Of a stretch of 41,352 nucleotides of DNA, positions 2 to 37,828 are shown in pieces. Within the stretch, counting starts at the first letter, position 1. Every line of letters starts with the position of its first letter. The DNA lies in the NCBI GenBank assembly GCA_027448765.1, contig DAIDMV010000005.1, forward strand, positions 9,530 through 50,881, given 5' to 3'. Under the pieces are notes generated by a model. It was not told where the DNA came from, did no database searches, and saw nothing but the letters and a program-made list of their open reading frames with translations. The stretch comes from a bacterium (GTDB taxonomy: Bacteria > Patescibacteriota > Saccharimonadia > Saccharimonadales > UBA4665). A program made the position numbers and the translations under genes.

Positions 2-2824
2 ATTAATCGTAATAATCGACTTAAAAAATTAATTGATTTAAATGCCCCAGAGGTTATTCGACGTAACGAGCAAAGAATGTTACAGGAAGCTGTCGATGCT
101 TTAATTGATAATAACAGTAATAGAAACGGTAAAGCCGTTGCCACTACTGGCCAAAGACGTAAATTAAAGAGTTTATCAGATTTATTGAAAGGTAAGCAGG
201 GCCGCTTTAGACAGAATTTGCTAGGTAAAAGAGTTGATTATTCTGGACGATCTGTAATAGTGTCTGGACCTAATCTTAATATTGATCAATGTGGTTTACC
301 AAAAATGATGGCTCTTGAATTATTTAAGCCTTTCGTCATTGGTGAATTAATTGCTAGAGATTTAGCTCATAATATTAGAAGTGCAACGCGTCTAATCGAA
401 AGTAGTGATAATGCTGTTTGGGATGCTTTAGATGAAGTGATTCAGGGTAAGTATGTTCTTTTGAATCGAGCACCAAGCTTACATCGTTTAAGCGTTCAAG
501 CCTTTCAACCGGTTTTAATTGAAGGTCGAGCCATACAGCTCCACCCATTAGTATGTAAGGGTTTTAACGCCGATTTTGACGGTGATCAAATGGCGGTACA
601 TTTACCCTTAAGTCAAGAAGCTCAAGATGAAGCTAAAGAAATCATGACTCCTAGACATAATTTGTTAAAACCAGCTGACGGAACTTCTATGCTTCACATT
701 GAACAAGATATTGTTTTGGGTTGTTATTATCTTACTTTTAATGATAAAAGAATTGATACTAAAACTGTCCATACTTTTATGTCTTTAGATGAAGCAATTT
801 TCGCTTACGATAAACGTTTAATTAAGTTACAGTCAACGATTAGAATACCTTTTAGAAATAAGATCCAACAATCAACACTTGGTCGTTTTATTTTTAATGA
901 AATTTTTCCAGATGATTTTTCTTTTCAAGATGCCGAAATGACTAAAAAACAATTGCAGTCAGTTGTTTTAAAGTTTTATCAGCAATATGGCCAAGAAAAA
1001 ACTGCTGAGATTGCCGATACTTTAAAAGAGTTAGGTTTTAGATATGCTACTGTTTCTGGTCTTTCGATCGGTACAAAAGATTTTATCGCTATGAATGGCT
1101 TGAACGATTTATTGGTCGAAGGTAATGAAAAAACCGCTGAGATTGCTGATCAGTACTTAAATGGTTTTATCGCTGAAGAAGAAAGACACCGATTAGTTAT
1201 TGAAGCTTGGAAGAGTGTTGATAATAAAGTTCAAGATTTAGTTGTTGACCAGGTGCAAAATATAAATTCAACTATGGCAATTGCTATTAATTCTGGAGCT
1301 CGAGGTGATGTTTCTCAAATGAAAAAGGCAGTTGGAATTCTAGGTATGTTTTCAGATGCTTCAGGTAACCCGATCGAGCTACCAGTAAAATCAAACTACA
1401 TGCAAGGCTTAGACCCGCTTGAATATTTTACGGGAACAAGAGGAAATCGTAAATCATTAATTGATATTGCATTAAAAACTGCTGATGCAGGTTATTTGAC
1501 TCGACGATTAGTTGATGTCAGTCAAGATGTCTTTACTGTTGACGATGATGAAGTGACTGATAATGGCTTTACTGTTTATCGAGAAGATGCAGAGTATATT
1601 AATGTTAGTTTCGCTTCTAAGCTTACTGGTAGATTTGCGGCTGAAAAAGTTAAGGATTATGTTAAAGCTGATCAGTTAATTAACGATGAAATTGCCGAAG
1701 CGATTGATTCTGACAGTCAAGTGGTTTCAGTCAAAATTAAGAGTGTTTTAAGTTGCACAAATGTAACAGGTGTTCCGGTTAAATCTTATGGAATTGATCC
1801 AGGAACTGGTAAATTAGTTGCAAATCATAATCCGATTGGAGTGATTGCGGCTCAAAGCATAGGTGAACCAGGTACTCAGCTAAGTCTAGACAGTAAACAC
1901 AGAGCGGGTTCTCTTTTACAGGATGACACGGCTCAAGGTCTATCTCGTATTGAAGAGTTATTTGAAGCTCGTAATCCAAAAGGTCAAGCTTTATTGTCCG
2001 AAATTGATGGTTCGGTCAGCATTAGAGAAGATAGCAATAATTATATTCTTCATATTACAGCTAAAGACATTAAACCATTAAAATATACACTAGGTGAACG
2101 TAAACCATTAATTGCCGATAATTCTGAAGTTGTTTCTGGAGATGTTTTAGCTTGTTTAGAGGATGGTTCAGATAAGGTTGTCGCACCATTAAATGGTCAA
2201 GTTGAAATTGATGGCAATAAAATTATTCTTAGACCTTTCCAACAAAGTGTTTTAAAGTATGAAATTCCAACTTTTCGAAAATTATTGGTTGAGGATGGTC
2301 AATCAGTTCAGGCTGGTCAAAAATTATCTGCTGGATCAGTTAATTTGCAAGATTTATTGCGATTACAGGGTGTCGAAGCGACTCAACGTTATATCATGAA
2401 TGAAGTTTTGTTAATTTTTGCAGGACAAGGTCAAAATATTGCACCAAAACACCTAGAGATTATTGTTAGACAAATGTTTTCGAGGGTTCAAATTGAGGAT
2501 CCAGGTGAATCTGAATTCGTAATTGGAGATGTTGTTTCTAAGTTAGCAGTTCATGAAGCTAACCTTGAATTAGTTAGAAACAATAAAAAACCAGCAGTTG
2601 TTAATCAGTTATTGTTAGGAATTACAAAAGCTAGTTTGAGTACGGATTCGTTTTTATCAGCTGCTTCATTTCAAGATACAACCAGAGTATTGATTACAGC
2701 CGCTACGAGTGGTAAGGTTGATAAATTATTTGGTCTGAAAGAAAATGTTATACTTGGTCGAAAAATCCCTGTCGGTACGGGTTATAAAGCCAGTGATAAA
2801 AATGAGGTTGAAAATATTGATTAA
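2..2824 (+). CDS. rpoC: DNA-directed RNA polymerase subunit beta' (partial, 5' end outside window)
   Basis: Catalytic beta' subunit of RNA polymerase. The reading frame is open from base 2 and the first residues ([19 protein letters not shown]) already match internal RpoC sequence, so the N-terminal part, including the zinc-binding region, lies upstream of the window. The Mg-chelating motif [12 protein letters not shown] is encoded at 566-601, preceded by [16 protein letters not shown]. The trigger-loop base, [17 protein letters not shown], is followed by LSLDSKH where most bacteria have LTMRTFH (about 1861-1899). This is an unusual set of substitutions at NTP-contacting positions, but the His is kept. 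The C-terminal clamp and jaw regions follow, and the gene stops with TAA at 2822. It is followed by rpsL after a 75-nt gap. Confidence 0.98.
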
Positions 2825-6025: not shown

Positions 6026-7210
6026 ATGGCTGTACAATTCGATCGTACTAAACCTCACGTAAATGTTGGAACCATGGGTCATGTTGATCATGGTAAAACA
6101 AGTTTAACTGCGGCAATCACTAAAATTTTATCTGAGAGATTACCTAGTAGTATTAATAAGGCAGTTGCCTATGATGAAATAGATAAAGCTCCAGAAGAGC
6201 GACAAAGAGGTATTACTATCTCTACTTCTCATACTGAATATGAAAGTGCAAAAAGACATTATGCTCACGTTGATATGCCTGGACATGCTGATTATGTTAA
6301 GAATATGATTACAGGTGCTGCTCAGATCGATGGAGCTATATTAGTCGTTTCAGCTGCCGATGGTCCAATGCCTCAAACTCGAGAACATGTCTTGTTAGCT
6401 CGTCAGGTTGGTGTTCCTAAAATTTTAGTTTTCTTAAATAAAATGGACTTAGCTGATGCTGAATTAGTTGATTTAGTTGAAGAAGAAATTCGTGAATTAT
6501 TAGAAAAGAATGGTTTCGACAAAGACGCTCCAATTATACGTGGATCTGCTACTAAAGCTATGGAAGGCGATAAAGAAAACCAAGATGCTGTTATGGCCTT
6601 AGTTGAAGCTATGGATGACTATATTCCTGAACCTAAAAGAGAATTAGATAAACCATTCTTAATGCCAATAGAAGATGTTTTTTCAATTAAAGGTCGTGGT
6701 ACAGTTGCTACCGGAAGAATTGAGTCAGGTATTGTTAAAATTAACGAGGAAGTTGAAATCGTTGGTATCAAGCCTTCTCGGAAATCTGTTGTGACTGGTA
6801 TTGAAGCTTTTAAGAAAAGTCTTGATCAGGGTCAAGCTGGAGATAACGCCGGCGTCTTATTGCGAGGTATTGAACGAAATGATATTGAACGTGGTCAAGT
6901 TTTAGCTAAGCCTGGTTCAATTACACCTCATACTGAATTTGATTCTGAAGTTTATATTTTAACTAAAGAAGAAGGTGGTCGACACACTCCTTTCTTTAAA
7001 GGATACAAGCCACAGTTTTATTTCCGAACCACAGATGTAACTGGTGAAGTAGAGTTACCTGCTGACAAAGAAATGGTTATGCCTGGTGATACAATTACTT
7101 TCAAAGTTAAATTATTAGCTCCAATTGCAATGGATCAAGGATTAAGATTTGCTATTCGAGAAGGTGGTAAAACCGTTGGTGCTGGTGTTGTTACCAAAAT
7201 TATTAAATAA
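6026..7210 (+). CDS. tuf: Translation elongation factor Tu
   Basis: GTPase that delivers aminoacyl-tRNA to the ribosome. The 394-residue product has normal length and all GTPase motifs: GHVDHGKT (about residues 19-26), [13 protein letters not shown] (residues 83-90), NKMD, and [10 protein letters not shown]. The Met in DMPGHADY replaces the very common Cys of DCPGHADY. Domains 2 and 3 are intact, including [13 protein letters not shown] and [16 protein letters not shown]. An AAGGAG ribosome-binding site lies upstream, and a dedicated promoter is predicted in the gap after fusA. No second tuf copy is in the window. Confidence 0.98.
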
Positions 7211-31299: not shown

Positions 31300-31668
31300 A
31301 TGGTAAAAAATTGCTGTCAGATTAGTCAAGAATTAATTCATAAGATTAGTTATGAAAACGATAGATTAAACGATCTAGCTCAAAAAAGATCTTATATCGC
31401 ACAAAAAAACGACATTCTGGAAAAACGACTTGAATCCATGAATTTTGAAAATAATCAGTATGGTGCTTTATTCGTGAGTCAATTCGTGGTTTATGCTCTT
31501 GGGAAGCATTTAAAATATGCTACTCAGGAAGCTATGACTGCAAAAAAAATCATACATCATCAAAAAATTAAAGATGATTGTATTCAAGAGCTTGATATTG
31601 TCATAGGTGCATTTTGCAATAGTACGTTTGGTTGTAAATTCTTGAACGAGCAATTAGAGAGCTTTTAA
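31300..31668 (+). CDS. Small protein of unknown function, helical, Cys-containing
   Basis: Not recognised. The 122-residue product is predicted to be mostly helical. Its first half looks coiled-coil-like (about residues 10-50, rich in Glu, Lys and Asn) and a hydrophobic patch follows (ALFVSQFVVYALGKHL, about residues 60-75). Five Cys residues (CC at 5-6, then three in the last 35 residues) stand out in a proteome with few Cys. There is no signal peptide. Its end overlaps the convergent DUF2779 gene by 15 nt. An upstream promoter-like region and its own codon pattern support a real gene. Confidence 0.6.
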   Translation: MVKNCCQISQELIHKISYENDRLNDLAQKRSYIAQKNDILEKRLESMNFENNQYGALFVSQFVVYALGKHLKYATQEAMTAKKIIHHQKIKDDCIQELDIVIGAFCNSTFGCKFLNEQLESF

Positions 31669-33138
31669 ATAATTATAGATCTCAACCATAGCTAAAGTGT
31701 CTAAACCACAATAGACCAACAAATCTTTAATGACTTTTTCTTTGCTAAATTGAGGATTATTGTCTAAAAAGGTTTGCATCCAAATTCTTTGAGCTGATTC
31801 ACCTTCTGAAATATTTAATGATTTATAAGACAATTTTTGGTTTAAAACGGGTAAAACCTTTTTAATTGAAGCTGAACCTTGAAAATCTTTATCGATGTAT
31901 AACCCATCACTAAATGGAACCATTAAATCAACTATCCGTGAATTGATTTTTTTTAATTGATCTTTTTTTTCAGGATATAATTTAGCCAATAAAACATTAC
32001 AGCTTGATTCGAAGGACATGTTCCAAACTACAATTGAACCAGTTTCACCTATATTATCAATTAGTTGATCTGTTAATGGTTTAACGGGGTTTGTTGAGTC
32101 TTGGTGAATATACTCGAAGTGTTTTAATTTTTTATCTGGAGCTTCAATCACATCTAAGGAATATTGAAATGGTAGTTGTTGGTAAGGTTTTAAGCCGTCA
32201 AATGGTGGAATAACGCTGGCTAAGGTTTCGTAATCAAGAAAATAGATTGGGAATTTTAATGTCTCTAAAAAGCTATGGATTTTTGTTTGATCGATAATAG
32301 GTTTTTTATCTTTAAAAGCTTGCACCTGGCGTTGTTGCTTGGTGGTTAAATAAAAATCATCTGGAATTTGACTTAAACTAGTGATATTCATTTCGTCAAA
32401 TTTGATTAATAATTGAGCGTTTAATAAGTATAAGTTTAAAATCGAATCAGCTGGAACCGTTTCGATTGACTTATAGATTTTGAGCCAATCTTGAAAAGAA
32501 TTGAGTCGGCAGTAAATTGGTGATAAGTCTGGTTTTTGGTAACTTGTTGCTGTTTTTAAAGCTTTTTGAATTTGATGAGAGGTTAATTTTCTTAGTTTTT
32601 TAACTTCTTCAGTTACTTCAGTCACTTTAGTGAGTTTTTCTGGATCGATCTCTCCTTGACGGACATAACTATTATTAACATGGGCAACGAAAATTTGATG
32701 AACCAAAAAACCTAATTTTTCAAGAATAAAAGCTTGAAAAGCTAGATCGTAATGATGGTCGGGCTTAACTCTGGTACTAGATTTAATCTCATAAAGATTA
32801 ATCTCTTTTTGAGAGATAAATTCAATTACATCACAAATGCAAGTTAGTTCTTCGTATTTAAAACGAGCTTGTAACAAAAATTGAGGTGGGTTTTGCAGGG
32901 CTTGATTGGTTTTTTGAAGTAGGTTATCGTAATCGTTTGGAATACTCATATCAAAGCCAAGTTTCTCGACTTCGCCTTTAAAAATTTTCTCTGCGTATGA
33001 CTCAAACAGGTGACCAGCATCAAATAAAGCTTGAGTATTTTCATCAATCGGAGGTAAGAGATTTTTTTGGTGTTTTTTAAGCCACAGCCAAGCTGGATGT
33101 TTTAAAAATAAAATATAATCAGATTTCGATAGTTCCAT
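31654..33138 (-). CDS. DUF2779-type nuclease (possible Cas4-like part plus DEDD exonuclease)
   Basis: The 494-residue product resembles DUF2779 proteins. The N-terminal half has features of a PD-(D/E)xK nuclease of the Cas4/RecB type (FDAGHLFESYAEKIF, INLYEIKSSTRVKPDHHYDLAFQAFIL, with ExK in YEIKSS). The C-terminal half has a DEDD exonuclease pattern: FLDYET, SIVVWNMSFESSC, a middle RIVDLMVPF, and YCGLDTLAMVEIY. Four Cys that would mark an iron-sulfur cluster are not evident. No CRISPR is in the window. A TATAAT lies 6 nt before the ATG, so its mRNA would be leaderless and made from within the gap to the ATPase gene. Confidence 0.75.
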   Translation of the reverse strand: MELSKSDYILFLKHPAWLWLKKHQKNLLPPIDENTQALFDAGHLFESYAEKIFKGEVEKLGFDMSIPNDYDNLLQKTNQALQNPPQFLLQARFKYEELTCICDVIEFISQKEINLYEIKSSTRVKPDHHYDLAFQAFILEKLGFLVHQIFVAHVNNSYVRQGEIDPEKLTKVTEVTEEVKKLRKLTSHQIQKALKTATSYQKPDLSPIYCRLNSFQDWLKIYKSIETVPADSILNLYLLNAQLLIKFDEMNITSLSQIPDDFYLTTKQQRQVQAFKDKKPIIDQTKIHSFLETLKFPIYFLDYETLASVIPPFDGLKPYQQLPFQYSLDVIEAPDKKLKHFEYIHQDSTNPVKPLTDQLIDNIGETGSIVVWNMSFESSCNVLLAKLYPEKKDQLKKINSRIVDLMVPFSDGLYIDKDFQGSASIKKVLPVLNQKLSYKSLNISEGESAQRIWMQTFLDNNPQFSKEKVIKDLLVYCGLDTLAMVEIYNYLKAL

Positions 33139-33144
33139 TAGTTT

Positions 33145-33150
33145 ATTATA
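33145..33150 (-). promoter_or_regulatory. -10 box of DUF2779 nuclease gene (leaderless)
   Basis: A perfect TATAAT on the minus strand with 6 nt to the ATG at 33138. It lies in the 16-nt gap after the P-type ATPase gene, so any upstream element must lie inside that gene. Confidence 0.55.
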
Positions 33151-33154
33151 GTCT

Positions 33155-35482
33155 TTATTTAAAAATAGGTAAGATTTTTTTCACTTTATCGGCCACAATT
33201 AAACTAATTAAGGCGGTTATAATAATAACGATTAAACCACTTATACTAATTGAATGAATGATAACACCGAAAATAGCCATGAGTAATAAAATAATACCAA
33301 CAGCTACAGTTGAAGTTAAGAGAATATTGCTTGGTTTTAAACTCCAAAAATGGCTTCTTGCTCTTAATGCATATAAGCTAGCTTGACCTTGGAAAACTAA
33401 AACGAGTAGGGTGAAAGATCTTAATTCGTTTAAACCATAATTAAGATAATATTTTGCTATTAAGACTGAAATTAGTAAGAAACTAAACAGAAAAATATTA
33501 AAAATTAAACCAGACTCTATCATTTTTTTAATCTTCCATTTACTGGGGCTAGGTGAGCCATTTAAATTATCAGTCGATATGGCGATGGTTACAAAATCAT
33601 TAGCGAAAAAGATTAAGATAACAAATAAAGGTGTTAAGATCAGCGATTTAAAAATTAATAAATAGACTACTATTAGTAAAGACATTTCTAAAACTTTTGT
33701 AATTTTATTAATAGCCCAAATTTTAATTCTAGCATCGACTTGACGAGAAATTTCAACAACGGAATATATATCGTTTAAAGCGTTATTAGATAAAACAATG
33801 CTTGCTGAATTTTTAGCTACATCAGTCGCATTAGAAACCGCAATACCAACTTCAGCTTGACTTAAAGCGGGTGCATCATTGACTCCATCACCAGTCATAC
33901 CAACAATATGACCGGCCTTTTGAAGCGCCTCAATAATAATTAATTTATCTTCTGGAAATGCTTCAGCGAAAACATCATTTTTAAAAACTAAGCTATTATC
34001 GTTTTTTAAATCATTAATTGAAACACATTTATCTTGAAAGCCTAATTGTTCAGCAATAGTTTTGGCGGTTTTAAGATTATCGCCTGAAATAATTTTAGGT
34101 TGAACACCATATTCTCTTAAATTATCTAGTAACTGCTTAGAATCATGTCGAATCGGATCGGCCATCGATATTAAACCAATTAATAATAATTGATGATTTT
34201 TTTCTTGAGCAATACCAACAACTCGATAACCTTTCTCGGTTAAAAAATCAATATCTGTCTGATAATTATGATCAGTTTGAAAATTATTTTTAATTAATGA
34301 TGACGGCAAACCTTTAGTGATGTTAATTGATTGATCATCGATCTTAATGGTGGCATTAGTTGATTTGGTTTTAATATCAAATGGTGAAAAATCAGTTTGT
34401 TTATAAAGGGTAAGGTTTGACTTTGTAGCATAATCGATAAAAGCTAAATCAATTGGATCATTATCTGATTGACTACTAGCCGAGGCAGCAATTTTAGCTA
34501 CTTCATCGGTTGAATATCCATAGTAAGCTTTAATATCAACAACCTCAGGTTTATTCATAGTTAAAGTACCGGTTTTGTCTAAACAAATAACTGACATTGA
34601 AGCCGCATCTTGGACGGCAGTTAGTCGTCTGACTAAGACACCTTTTTTGTTTTTAGTAATTCCGGACATTTCAAAAGCACCGTAAGTTTGAGCTACAATA
34701 AACATGGTCGGAAAAGCCGCTGGAACAGCAGCCAGTAGTAAAACAATAGCAACTAAAATAAAATCCATTAAGCTTAACTGAATATAAAAATTTAAGATAC
34801 CGATGATTGCAACTAAAATAATATTAATGATGAATTGGTATTTAATAATAGCAAAAACAATCTTTTCTAAATTAGTCGGAGGGTGAGCTTTGTTAATTAG
34901 ATTAGTTAGCTGACCATATTTAGTATTCGAACCGGTGTTTTTGACTGTTGCCGTAGCTTCACCTCGAACAATTAAGCTACCAGAAAAGACATCATCATTT
35001 TTATTTTTGGCAATTGACATTGATTCACCAGTTAAACTGGATTGATCAGCTTCAATTTGCCCGTCAATGACGGTTAAATCAGCCGTTATAATGTCGCCAG
35101 TTCTAATCCTGATTAAATCACCTGGTAATAATTCTCTCGATGGGATATTAACCCAGTTGTTATCACGACAAACGCGGACGAAAATTTGTAATTTTTCTTG
35201 TAATTTTTCTAGTGCTTTATTAGTTCTAAGTTGTTGAGAGTAGGATATAAAGCTATTAATAAATAATAAAAAAAGAATTAAAATAACTTCTAAGTCATTA
35301 TGAATTAAAAATAATAAAATAGCCGAAATTTCTAGCATGAAAGGCAATGGACCCCAGAAATTTTTTAGCCAAATTAAAATTTTATTCGGTTTTTTTGTTT
35401 TTATCTCGTTAAATCCAAATTGCTGTCTTAGTTTATCAATATTGTGATTAGATAATTGTGGGTAGTTTTTGTCTTTCAACAT
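33155..35482 (-). CDS. P3A-type proton-efflux ATPase (plasma-membrane H+-ATPase-like)
   Basis: Ion pump of the cytoplasmic membrane. The 775-residue product starts with a cation-ATPase N-domain (NIDKLRQQFGFNEI). It has the actuator motif SSLTGESM, TM4 AAVPAAFPTMFIVAQTYGA, phosphorylation site LDKTGTLTMNKPEV, nucleotide-binding KGLPSS, GDGVNDAPALSQAEVGIAVSNATDVAKNSASIVL, and several C-terminal membrane helices. It has no N-terminal metal-binding CxxC domains, which argues against a heavy-metal pump; the overall order fits P3A H+-ATPases. An extended -10 (TGTTACAAT) ends 7 nt before the ATG. Ion specificity is inferred. Confidence 0.88.
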   Translation of the reverse strand: MLKDKNYPQLSNHNIDKLRQQFGFNEIKTKKPNKILIWLKNFWGPLPFMLEISAILLFLIHNDLEVILILFLLFINSFISYSQQLRTNKALEKLQEKLQIFVRVCRDNNWVNIPSRELLPGDLIRIRTGDIITADLTVIDGQIEADQSSLTGESMSIAKNKNDDVFSGSLIVRGEATATVKNTGSNTKYGQLTNLINKAHPPTNLEKIVFAIIKYQFIINIILVAIIGILNFYIQLSLMDFILVAIVLLLAAVPAAFPTMFIVAQTYGAFEMSGITKNKKGVLVRRLTAVQDAASMSVICLDKTGTLTMNKPEVVDIKAYYGYSTDEVAKIAASASSQSDNDPIDLAFIDYATKSNLTLYKQTDFSPFDIKTKSTNATIKIDDQSINITKGLPSSLIKNNFQTDHNYQTDIDFLTEKGYRVVGIAQEKNHQLLLIGLISMADPIRHDSKQLLDNLREYGVQPKIISGDNLKTAKTIAEQLGFQDKCVSINDLKNDNSLVFKNDVFAEAFPEDKLIIIEALQKAGHIVGMTGDGVNDAPALSQAEVGIAVSNATDVAKNSASIVLSNNALNDIYSVVEISRQVDARIKIWAINKITKVLEMSLLIVVYLLIFKSLILTPLFVILIFFANDFVTIAISTDNLNGSPSPSKWKIKKMIESGLIFNIFLFSFLLISVLIAKYYLNYGLNELRSFTLLVLVFQGQASLYALRARSHFWSLKPSNILLTSTVAVGIILLLMAIFGVIIHSISISGLIVIIITALISLIVADKVKKILPIFK

Positions 35483-35489
35483 AAGCTTT

Positions 35490-35498
35490 ATTGTAACA
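35490..35498 (-). promoter_or_regulatory. Extended -10 promoter of P-type ATPase gene (leaderless)
   Basis: TGTTACAAT on the minus strand (35498-35490), followed by 7 nt and the ATG at 35482. No Shine-Dalgarno is present. Confidence 0.55.
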
Positions 35499-35527
35499 AA
35501 AAAAAGTTATAACTAACAAACACAGAT

Positions 35528-35555
35528 TGGTAAGGGAGATATAACTCGAACTTAT
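35528..35555 (-). other. Remnant of a tRNA 3' end (T-arm plus acceptor plus CCA), possible attachment site
   Basis: Read on the minus strand, these 28 nt have the exact spacing of a tRNA 3' part: a T-stem ATAAG, a T-loop TTCGAGT, a partly pairing TATAT, the acceptor strand CTCCCTT, a discriminator and CCA. The acceptor differs from tRNA-Trp (37001-37076) by one transition (CTCCCCT), and the TTCGA core is identical. No 5' half of a tRNA follows; instead the vapC 3' end occupies that side and its stop codon lies in the remnant. Geometry and strand fit an att-like duplication left by insertion into tRNA-Trp. Confidence 0.55.
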
Positions 35556-35950
35556 GCTAAATGTAATCCGTGAATCTTATATTCTGACATCTGTTTATCG
35601 CTTGAGATTAGAATTAAGCCACTTTCTATAGAATGCCAGATAATCATCCTGTCAAAAGGGTCTTTGTGTTTATTAATCGTAGGTAACAAATAAAAAGACG
35701 AGTATTGTTCAGTTGAGGGTGCTATAACTTTAATTCCTAGTTTGTTAATTCCAGCAATAAATTCATCTGGAGTAAGGCCACCTAACTCAAGCTTACCAAT
35801 GGAATATTTTAAACTTATTTCCCAAACACTAATTGCGCTTATAAATTTTTTATCAGTAACTGATTCAAGTATTATTTTATGTGCCTTAGTTAGTTTCTTT
35901 TGATCAAGTCGAGCCCATATTAAAATATGAGTATCGAGTAAATAATTCAT
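35552..35950 (-). CDS. vapC: VapC-family PIN-domain ribonuclease toxin
   Basis: Type II toxin that would cleave RNA when free of antitoxin. The 132-residue product has the PIN acidic set D6 (LLDTHILIW), E44 (SVWEISLK), D97/D100 (HKDPFDRMII) and D118 (ISSDKQM). The HKDPFDRMI form belongs to VapCs usually paired with Phd/YefM antitoxins, as here. The start overlaps the antitoxin stop by 4 nt. Its stop codon falls in the tRNA-like remnant at 35528-35555. Confidence 0.92.
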   Translation of the reverse strand: MNYLLDTHILIWARLDQKKLTKAHKIILESVTDKKFISAISVWEISLKYSIGKLELGGLTPDEFIAGINKLGIKVIAPSTEQYSSFYLLPTINKHKDPFDRMIIWHSIESGLILISSDKQMSEYKIHGLHLA

Positions 35951-36189
35951 GACTTTAACAGATCTTCATCTGTCATTTCAAAATCTACTAGTTTATAGGT
36001 ATATCCAGCGTCCTCAAGATCTCCAAGCTTAATTGAATAGTCTGGCTTTATTAGCTTACTTTGAGGAATTATAGTAGCTAAAGGTTGCTTATTCCGACCA
36101 TAAGTTATAGCCACCTCATTGCCTTTTTTTAGCTCATCAACGACAGATGAAAAGTTTGCTTTAAAATCAGCCGTAGTCATGGTTTTCAT
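35947..36189 (-). CDS. Phd/YefM-family antitoxin
   Basis: DNA-binding antitoxin that neutralises the adjacent PIN toxin. The 80-residue product has the N-terminal Phd fold MTTADFKANFSSVVDELKKGNEVAITYGRNKQPLATIIP and a C-terminal tail (DLEDAGYTYKLVDFEMTDEDLL) for toxin binding. The start at 36189 (MKTMTTADF) rather than the ATG at 36180 is supported by the promoter: TAATAT ends 6 nt before 36189, so translation would start at the mRNA 5' end. Confidence 0.9.
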   Translation of the reverse strand: MKTMTTADFKANFSSVVDELKKGNEVAITYGRNKQPLATIIPQSKLIKPDYSIKLGDLEDAGYTYKLVDFEMTDEDLLKS

Positions 36190-36195
36190 AACTAA

Positions 36196-36224
36196 ATATT
36201 ATCGAATAGTGTGAATGTTGTCAA
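36196..36224 (-). promoter_or_regulatory. Consensus promoter of toxin-antitoxin operon
   Basis: On the minus strand, a perfect TTGACA (36224-36219), a 17-nt spacer and TAATAT (36201-36196), then 6 nt to the antitoxin ATG. It is among the best -35/-10 pairs in the window. Confidence 0.8.
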
Positions 36225-36242
36225 GTTGTCACTTTCGTGACA
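36217..36242. promoter_or_regulatory. Putative antitoxin operator (direct and inverted repeats over the -35)
   Basis: GTTGTCA occurs twice with an 8-bp period (36217-36223 and 36225-36231), and TGTCAC (36227-36232) with GTGACA (36237-36242) forms a perfect inverted repeat spaced by TTTC. These overlap the -35 box. Phd-type antitoxins repress their own operons by binding such palindromes; binding here is inferred. Confidence 0.5.
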
Positions 36243-36316
36243 GGGGAGGCGGTCGGTAGCCAAAAATTTTAACGACATTCAGTCTAGTGTTAAAAAGTTT
36301 GAGTAGTTGGTGTTTT

Positions 36317-36325
36317 TGATATGAT
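36317..36325 (+). promoter_or_regulatory. Extended -10 promoter of decayed 2H gene (leaderless)
   Basis: TGATATGAT: extended TG plus TATGAT (5 of 6), ending exactly 6 nt before the ATG at 36332. It has the same architecture as other single-gene promoters in this window, so transcription may persist even though the gene is broken. Confidence 0.5.
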
Positions 36326-36331
36326 AGTTAG

Positions 36332-36725
36332 ATGGGACCAGCTTTTATAACAGATAATAATTTACTGCAATCACTAGAAGGCCAACAATATATCGTCTTT
36401 CGCCCAAGTAATGATATAACCGACTATTACAAATCAGTACAAAGTGAATTAAAGAAAATGCTGCCCTCAAGTACTAAATATCCAAATACTGGACATATTA
36501 CGATGGGTGATTTTAGCGACTCTAACTAAACTTGATAAGTCATTTAGGTTTTGTACTACGAGTATTAAATCTCTCGTTGTTTTAGTTGAAAATATCGATT
36601 TTTTTCCTTCACCTTTCAAGATCATAATTCTTAATAAAATCCTCCAATTTTTAATAAATGAGGCAGAGCTAACAGAATATCGTGCTGGTGGGTATTCCAA
36701 ATCATTGAAATTGAGCGATAAATAG
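36332..36725 (+). pseudogene. Frameshifted 2'-5' RNA ligase / 2H-phosphoesterase-like gene remnant
   Basis: Two ORFs in adjacent frames overlap at about 36500-36529. The first (65 residues) has QQYIVFRPSNDITDYYKSVQSELKKML and YPNTGHITMGDF, resembling the first HxT motif of 2H phosphoesterases. The second frame continues LATLTKLDKSFRF and ENIDFFPSPFKIIIL, like the IDxFPxPFxIxI segment after that motif. A +1 shift near 36503 restores one reading frame. The expected second HxT motif is not found, so the 3' part is also missing. A sequencing indel could explain the frameshift but not the truncation. Confidence 0.5.
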
Positions 36726-37000
36726 CCCAGAACTCCCTTGTATTTTTGTCGCAGTAAAGTCTACAATGGTCCTCCAATTATTCTCAGTTAACTTCAACGG
36801 TAACAATTTAATTTATATTTATAAGTCGTATTCAACCAATAAGGACTGTTAAATATATTATAGTATGCCTCTCAAAGGGGCTTTATTAACAGTATTTAAA
36901 AAGTAGACCGAGCCACATCATGACATTCTGATTTGGTGGACTCTAAATCTGATAAAACCTCATTACTTGTGTTCATTTTAGTATTATATAATATCAATCC
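36726..37000. other. Non-coding stretch between gene remnant and tRNA-Trp
   Basis: No convincing ORF or repeat family is seen. A weak hairpin, GCCTC (36867-36871) with GGGGC (36877-36881) followed by TTTATT, could be a minor terminator. Its position downstream of both the 2H remnant and the minus-strand tRNA-Trp suggests relic sequence. Confidence 0.5.
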
Positions 37001-37076
37001 TGGCAGGGGAGACAGGGATCGAACCTGCGACAACCGGTTTTGGAGACCGGTGCTCTACCAGCTGAGCTACTCCCCT
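37001..37076 (-). tRNA. tRNA-Trp (CCA)
   Basis: A 76-nt cloverleaf on the minus strand. The acceptor AGGGGAG pairs with CTCCCCT; the anticodon stem CCGGT/ACCGG encloses CTCCAAA with anticodon CCA. The T-arm is GCAGG TTCGATC CCTGT, the discriminator is G as expected for Trp, and CCA is encoded. A partial copy of its 3' end lies 1.5 kb downstream at 35528-35555, and a shorter match (TGACAGGGGAG) is at 36238-36248. Confidence 0.97.
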
Positions 37077-37165
37077 ATAAGAATGATTTTACTATTTAAT
37101 TAATTGAACAACAAACATAAATAAAGTTTTTTAATAAAAAAATATGTTATATAATAAACTTTAAT

Positions 37166-37828
37166 ATGAACAAAATCAGACCACAGAAGCCTTTTTTAAT
37201 GTATATGTATGGATTTCCAGGCGCCGGTAAAACTTATTTAGCTCGACAATTATCAGAAGATATTCAAGTAGCACATATTCAAGCCGATCGAATTCGTAAT
37301 GAATTATTCACTGGACCAAAGTATGATCAATCTGAGAACGATATCATCAACCAGTTAATGAACTATATGACTGAAGAATTTCTTAAAGCTGGCGTCTCAG
37401 TTGTTTATGATTTTAATGCAATACGCAATTCACAAAGACGATTTTTAAGAGAATTGGCTCGCAACAGTAAGGCTGAAAGTTTACTAGTCTGGTTACAACT
37501 AGATATGGAGACAGCTTATCTGAGAAATTATAAAAGAGATAAAAGAAAAAATGATGACAAATATTCTCATTCCTTAAATCAAACTGAATTTAAAGATTTT
37601 ATTTCTAAAATGCAAAACCCTTCTACTTTAGATAATTACATGGTAGTTAGTGGTAAACATTCTTATCAAACTCAAAAAAACTCGATTATTAACAAACTAA
37701 AAAGTTTTGGAATAATTTCCAGCGAAGACATCAATAACCACGTTACTATGCCGGGAATGGTTAATTTAGTTCCAAATAGTTATTCTAATCATAATGATTT
37801 ATCAAAAAGGAATATTGTTATTAGATAA
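37166..37828 (+). CDS. P-loop kinase-like AAA protein (zeta-toxin / polynucleotide-kinase-like)
   Basis: ATP-binding protein with probable phosphotransfer function. The 220-residue product has Walker A YGFPGAGKTYLARQLS (about residues 15-30), then VAHIQADRIRNELF as in zeta-toxin and small kinases, GVSVVYDFNAIRNSQRRFLRELA, and LLVWLQLDMETAYLRNYKRDKRKNDD with a lid-like basic segment. No antitoxin-like gene is adjacent, so a housekeeping kinase is as likely as a toxin. TATAAT at 37150-37155 gives a leader of only a few nt. A metallopeptidase follows after 5 nt, suggesting an operon. Confidence 0.75.
   Translation: MNKIRPQKPFLMYMYGFPGAGKTYLARQLSEDIQVAHIQADRIRNELFTGPKYDQSENDIINQLMNYMTEEFLKAGVSVVYDFNAIRNSQRRFLRELARNSKAESLLVWLQLDMETAYLRNYKRDKRKNDDKYSHSLNQTEFKDFISKMQNPSTLDNYMVVSGKHSYQTQKNSIINKLKSFGIISSEDINNHVTMPGMVNLVPNSYSNHNDLSKRNIVIR

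Follow-up and report, generated by a model that had tools for sequence, protein, structure and literature searches.

How a toxin-antitoxin pair came to lie behind a tRNA-Trp gene, and whether it was inserted there, is the question raised by a small islet in the window (the whole stretch of 41,352 nucleotides analysed here, which comes from contig C5 in a draft genome of 745 kb). The sequence-only reading had proposed a single insertion into the 3' end of tRNA-Trp, with the intact tRNA at one boundary and a displaced copy of its 3' end at the other. The islet (35528-37000) is probably an old, decayed cargo region anchored at tRNA-Trp, consisting of two units and belonging to a recurring class of tRNA-anchored units. 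Taken by itself the islet is a modest and decayed example, and more interest attaches to the class behind it.

Layout of the islet and its tRNA-like copies

The tRNA-Trp gene was confirmed as one boundary (Table 1). The encoded CCA at its 3' end points toward the islet, and from this end the order is a degenerate stretch, the antitoxin and the PIN toxin, both with open frames, a P-type ATPase and a gene called nuclease-like, a label that we take from its look. The genes of the islet and its flank are all on the minus strand, with the 65-aa ORF as the sole exception. A kinase-like gene on the plus strand adjoins the tRNA-Trp of the window; a kinase-like match was obtained in 58 of 60 relatives, and in many the tRNA-Trp lies beside the kinase-like gene.

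Table 1. Positions of the islet features and flanking genes in the window, followed by loci of relatives (with locus handles) that carry tandem units
Feature	Position	Strand	Basis
tRNA-Trp, CCA anticodon, anchor	37001..37076	-	ARAGORN; Rfam tRNA 69 bits
Degenerate putative unit, tRNA-Trp to vapBC unit	36250..37000		no Pfam match; no homologue in congeners
65-aa ORF inside the degenerate unit, no known family	36332-36529	+	ORF list
Acceptor/CCA-like stretch CCTCCCCTGTCA, second copy, on the near side of vapBC	36238..36249	-	alignment to G031; 12-mer search
vapB-type antitoxin, Phd/YefM-like, 80 aa	35947..36189	-	PF02604 E 6e-6, below Pfam's own cut-off
vapC-type toxin, PIN domain, 132 aa, open frame	35552..35950	-	PF01850 E 2.9e-13; homologue alignment
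Decayed T-arm/acceptor/CCA copy, far side of vapBC	35528..35555	-	18/28 to tRNA-Trp; acceptor part in 12-mer search
P-type ATPase, outer flank	33155..35482	-	ORF and family search; also adjoins the locus in G005, G006
Nuclease-like gene	31654..33138	-	tRNA-Trp neighbour in G002; kept in G001, G005, G006
Tandem toxin-antitoxin units behind tRNA-Arg, closed by ~123-bp sites	L297 14341-18944; L299 10040-12213; L300 10422-16404		
Further loci with tandem toxin-antitoxin units and ~123-bp sites	L305, L306, L308-L311, L313, L315-L317		

The vapC-antitoxin cargo named in the sequence-only reading was borne out by matches to PF01850 and PF02604. The antitoxin lies directly upstream of the toxin and overlaps it by 4 nt, and the acidic residues D6, E44, D100 and D118 of VapC, which we take to be catalytic as in such proteins, are invariant in an alignment of three homologues. 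Judged by its PIN toxin and overlapping upstream antitoxin, the pair fits a predicted VapBC type II toxin-antitoxin system. The defence-library scan gave no match for vapBC itself. As had been stated, no integrase remains among the ORFs of the islet; the sole PF00589 match of this genome is on another contig than tRNA-Trp. The 65-aa ORF had been taken for a broken 2H gene, and this label was dropped, since a Pfam search that admitted E values up to 10 gave no match for the ORF and six congeners had no homologue.

The remnant postulated at the far boundary comprises 28 nt and overlaps the vapC stop codon. It shows the spacing of T-loop, acceptor and CCA and lies on the strand of the tRNA. As had been claimed, it shares 6 of 7 acceptor bases with tRNA-Trp (read from the sequence), and its 10 differences are mostly transitions (8, with 2 transversions). 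On its own, this 28-mer is not significant. It is unconvincing alone because position 6561 of the window reaches the same 18/28 identity to the tRNA-Trp 3' end, its score of 7.5 bits in the tRNA-3'-end profile is weak (shuffled windows give 0.3 such matches each), and by our own count its local score of 10 is also attained in 12 of the 54 controls on the opposite strand. One non-tRNA site of the window (520-547) scores higher in the profile, and Rfam gave no meaningful score for this tRNA-like stretch.

The second copy, at 36238, was absent from the sequence-only reading and emerged from aligning vapBC with its homologues. It aligns with the real tRNA-Trp end, CCCCTGCCA, of G031, a genome of another genus of the same family, in which the homologous vapBC begins straight after the tRNA-Trp 3' end; in this alignment the tRNA end and the copy stand two to three bases before the leader common to both. 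A 12-mer search with TCTCCCCTGCCA, allowing at most two mismatches on both strands of the 41 kb, found three places, namely the tRNA, 36238 and 35528, with 0.76 expected per shuffled window; this test was framed after the second copy was already known. The only two non-tRNA matches both flank vapBC on the tRNA strand, and vapBC is therefore bounded on both sides by acceptor-like copies in tRNA orientation. By our own arithmetic, about 0.014 (window shuffles) or about 0.05 (background of 54 tRNA-Trp loci) such matches are expected in 1.47 kb, and two were seen. Over the 54 loci, 12-mers with exactly two mismatches numbered eight on the opposite strand and eight on the same strand, two of the latter being those of the window. 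The single insertion proposed earlier gives way to a better reading of the islet as two units divided at 36238-36249.

The place behind tRNA-Trp in relatives

Among six congeners, G001, G002, G005 and G006 are readable at this place, and the assemblies of G003 and G004 break in the region. In G002 a gap of about 48 bp, too short for any ATPase gene, separates the nuclease-like gene from tRNA-Trp; a DUF218 gene stands between the nuclease-like gene and tRNA-Trp in G001; the ATPase is present in G005 and G006 together with an intact gene of about 715 aa, which we take to be MMPL-type by reading of its sequence. The four congeners present three arrangements, all unlike that of the window, and the place behind tRNA-Trp is therefore variable. 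The sequence-only reading had expected the ATPase to be joined directly to tRNA-Trp in relatives lacking vapBC. This expectation was not borne out in the readable congeners, where no such empty site was found and the MMPL-type, DUF218 or nuclease-like gene is the neighbour; nor did an allele turn up that lacks just the vapBC unit in a clean way. A remnant kept without the toxin-antitoxin pair had been named as evidence against insertion, and no same-strand acceptor copy was found within the 5 kb examined in any of the four, none of which has the pair.

Assembly breaks occur at or near the locus in several relatives, at the region corresponding to 31900-37270 of the window in G003 and G004, and with tRNA-Trp at contig ends in G001, G030 and G044. 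A variable or repeated place would be expected to give such breaks.

Displaced tRNA ends were sought at 54 tRNA-Trp loci. This set leaves out the second copy in each of three genomes, any locus where no tRNA-Trp was called and any with less than 300 bp downstream. The query for each locus was the last 28 nt of its own tRNA-Trp, and the opposite strand and shuffled queries served as controls. At a best local score of at least 12, displaced ends were found on the same strand in 9 of 54 loci and on the opposite strand in 1 of 54 (shuffled queries, 0.67); at a score of at least 14, the numbers were 6, 0 and 0. A smaller control with 22 other tRNAs gave 1 and 0 at score 12. The last 12 nt of tRNA-Trp, with at most one mismatch, recurred on the same strand in 5 of 54 loci and on the opposite strand in none.

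Several of these copies bound cargo. In G018, TAAAGTTCGAATCCCTCATCCCCTGCCA lies 1.9 kb downstream of tRNA-Trp and starts where the Doc toxin gene of an AbrB-like/Doc unit has its stop codon, so that the toxin stands between this copy and tRNA-Trp. The same unit is present in G029 (Doc 80% identical), with TCTCCCCAGCCA on the near side and a decayed copy after Doc. Two T-arm copies in G008, at +79 and +4017, surround an 819-aa gene and a TIR gene. The proposal of toxin-antitoxin cargo at the tRNA-Trp 3' end with a displaced far end was thus upheld in part: G031, G018 and the tRNA-Arg units described below speak for it, and the empty site was not seen. In the defence-library scan, the TIR, Fic and nuclease-like genes among the relatives' cargo had matches of weak to moderate strength. 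A PF00589 match was obtained in 18 of 20 genomes searched; in none of the 16 with both a match and a located tRNA-Trp was it on the tRNA-Trp contig.

Toxin-antitoxin arrays behind tRNA-Arg

Three VapC queries gave matches at 27 places in 24 of 392 genomes of the order. A tRNA gene lies within the 1.5-kb flank at four of the nine closest places (tRNA-Trp in the window and G031, tRNA-Arg in G087 and G085) vs one of the 18 more distant places. A tRNA-Arg is found 1.5 to 2 kb upstream of vapBC in G073 and G079 and about 3 kb upstream, on the same strand, in G010; the stretches fetched for G023 and G006 have none on the proper side of vapBC. The vapBC homologue of G006 (L271 / L106, G006:C1:102343-103028) is away from any tRNA gene, and some 15 bp behind its stop codon stands TTAAGTTCGA, which resembles the start of the window's copy.

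In three further genera, vapBC units homologous to that of the window sit in tandem toxin-antitoxin arrays, mostly just downstream of tRNA-Arg, and the sequences of the units, their order and their recurrence are read directly from these genomes. Over about 1 kb, the vapBC units of G073, G023, G079, G085 and G087 share 87-97% identity. In these five genomes the unit starts right after a CCA, which belongs to tRNA-Arg (G087, G085), to the preceding site (G073, G023) or to an uncalled ACCA (G079), and it ends in a conserved site of about 123 bp closing in ACCA. The leader of the tRNA-Arg units is about 230 bp longer than that of the window and has no tRNA-like end where copy 36238 aligns. In G073, five successive pairs follow tRNA-Arg (RHH/MazF-like, Phd/PIN, vapBC, RHH/PIN and AbrB-like/PIN), where a short T-arm copy separates pairs one and two and sites stand between the last four. 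Compared by eye among the matches listed, other genomes have similar pairs in a different order and next to different tRNA-Arg genes. No recombinase or integron integrase was noticed by eye among the ORFs listed for the array-bearing loci.

The ~123-bp site starts with a T-arm-like GGTTCTAATCC, which reads TGTGCTAATCC in two copies of the site. Its profile gave 29 matches, two of them short and partial, in 24 sources and none in the window; repeated copies were found by this search in relatives such as G073, G023 and G079. Ten contigs from the genus of G085 have site-region matches beyond the vapBC unit. Of these ten, all of which were fetched, nine have a site downstream of a tRNA-Arg, at a distance of up to about 2.7 kb on the same strand; one of the nine tRNA-Arg genes is partial, at the contig start. 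Two patterns of the site had no exact match in viral contigs, and Rfam gave no meaningful score for the sites of G073.

The site was also considered as a folded hairpin of the attC type. Folding was not significant in six sites (z-scores from -1.5 to 0.65) and there was almost no covariation (covariation term 0.06), which gave this candidate no support; by that test the site is therefore no integron attC. Compared by eye, it is also unlike the attC consensus.

Origin of the islet and comparison with known systems

In the two-unit reading, unit one would be vapBC, at about 35540-36237, with decayed acceptor/CCA copies at both ends, and unit two the degenerate stretch between vapBC and tRNA-Trp, probably inserted later. 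The class to which both would belong recurs in this small-genome lineage and comprises single-gene or toxin-antitoxin units of about 0.5 to 3 kb with no integrase seen inside. They follow one another downstream of tRNA-Trp or tRNA-Arg, and at the end of each stands a copy of the tRNA 3' end or a sequence related to it. As to mechanism, we infer recombination, a circular form and a recombinase: a site-specific enzyme acting in trans would join the site of a circular unit to the CCA end of the tRNA. Every insertion would restore the tRNA end and push the old end outward, so that the units would stack with the newest beside the tRNA. In the window, the vapBC unit would on this account be the older of the two and the degenerate one the younger. 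Trp-type copies and ~123-bp sites of the Arg type may be one system, because they have in common a homologous vapBC, the T-arm/CCA make-up and the same strand rule. A wider proposal, which we put forward tentatively and with some doubt, is that the lineage has a cassette system in which recombination is anchored at tRNA genes (Arg, Trp) and toxin-antitoxin units that bear tRNA-3'-end-like sites are taken up, stacked and reordered with no integrase in the array, the islet being a decayed tRNA-Trp example.

The tRNA-like stretches could also be coincidental, the vapBC having been gained or retained in the ordinary way in a variable spacer behind tRNA-Trp. The 18/28 identity reached elsewhere in the window, the background of two-mismatch 12-mers in relatives, the variability of the place in any case and the G006 homologue remote from any tRNA all speak for this. 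It nevertheless appears rather unlikely, as two copies flank vapBC on the right strand where only a small fraction of one is expected in 1.47 kb, the real tRNA end of G031 is aligned with copy 36238, and displaced tRNA-Trp ends recur in relatives.

Tandem duplication of tRNA-Trp followed by decay might have left 3' fragments between which vapBC slipped later. Partial tRNA-Trp copies (nt 1-54) do stand just upstream of the full one in G035 and G070, and G051 has several 3' fragments within 400 bp; most downstream copies in relatives are, however, 3' ends only, and homologous toxin-antitoxin units begin and end at copies in different genera, which makes such an origin very improbable. Least probable of all appears an origin from an ordinary integrative element, either an island or a satellite, that has lost its integrase and has no link to the cassette arrays of relatives. 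An intact tRNA with a displaced 3' end is the classic geometry of such elements, and toxin-antitoxin genes are their common cargo, but in relatives the units are just as small, likewise lack an integrase and carry homologous vapBC.

Tycheposons and other tRNA-associated carriers have cargo at tRNA genes and tRNA remnants, as here, and are larger and hold their own recombinase genes, unlike the units of the relatives. The tRNA-targeted genomic islands, such as those mapped by Islander (PMC4383910), have the tRNA restored at one end and a displaced 3' fragment at the other in the same orientation; the present units differ in being about 0.7 kb long, free of integrase, stacked in several and bounded by strongly decayed copies. 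As to the island criterion of a displaced 3' fragment in tRNA orientation, the match is weak in the window and clear in relatives.

Toxin-antitoxin cassettes are common in integron gene-cassette arrays (PMC9668308). The relatives resemble such arrays in their tandem small units, a conserved site after each, the prominence of toxin-antitoxin genes and an order that varies between genomes; they differ in that the anchor is a tRNA gene, no integron integrase was seen and the site is not significantly folded. Integron-type tandem units with a conserved site are present in G073, G023 and G079 and absent from the window (0 sites). In the available portions of the open-licence literature searched, including PMC10462680, PMC9668308 and PMC12455944, no description of such tRNA-anchored cassettes was found. 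Capture of toxin-antitoxin genes behind tRNA genes looks like a little-known way for tiny-genome bacteria to collect such genes. If this is true, very small genomes would have, behind tRNA genes, a docking place at which single units are exchanged that carry toxin-antitoxin and perhaps defence genes. It would be a second solution to the problem that integrons solve, integron-like in its working, with an unrelated site and anchor. The CCA-ended sites behind tRNA-Arg and tRNA-Trp would then offer a sequence handle for finding such genes across the lineage and would help in asking which recombinase moves the units.

Some features of the tRNA-Trp loci of relatives stand apart from these questions. 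The 819-aa gene between the T-arm copies of G008 (L133 8197-12131) is without a Pfam match and has the TIR-domain gene as its neighbour. A pPIWI-associating-nuclease-like gene (PF18165) lies in G038 (L141 951-2338) behind tRNA-Trp and an exact 16-nt copy of the tRNA-Trp 3' end. A conserved non-coding element of about 100 bp forms an insertion in the T-loop of a tRNA-Trp copy at L178 1196-1292, L170 968-1065 and L138 1267-1364, and it is 86-90% identical across three genera.
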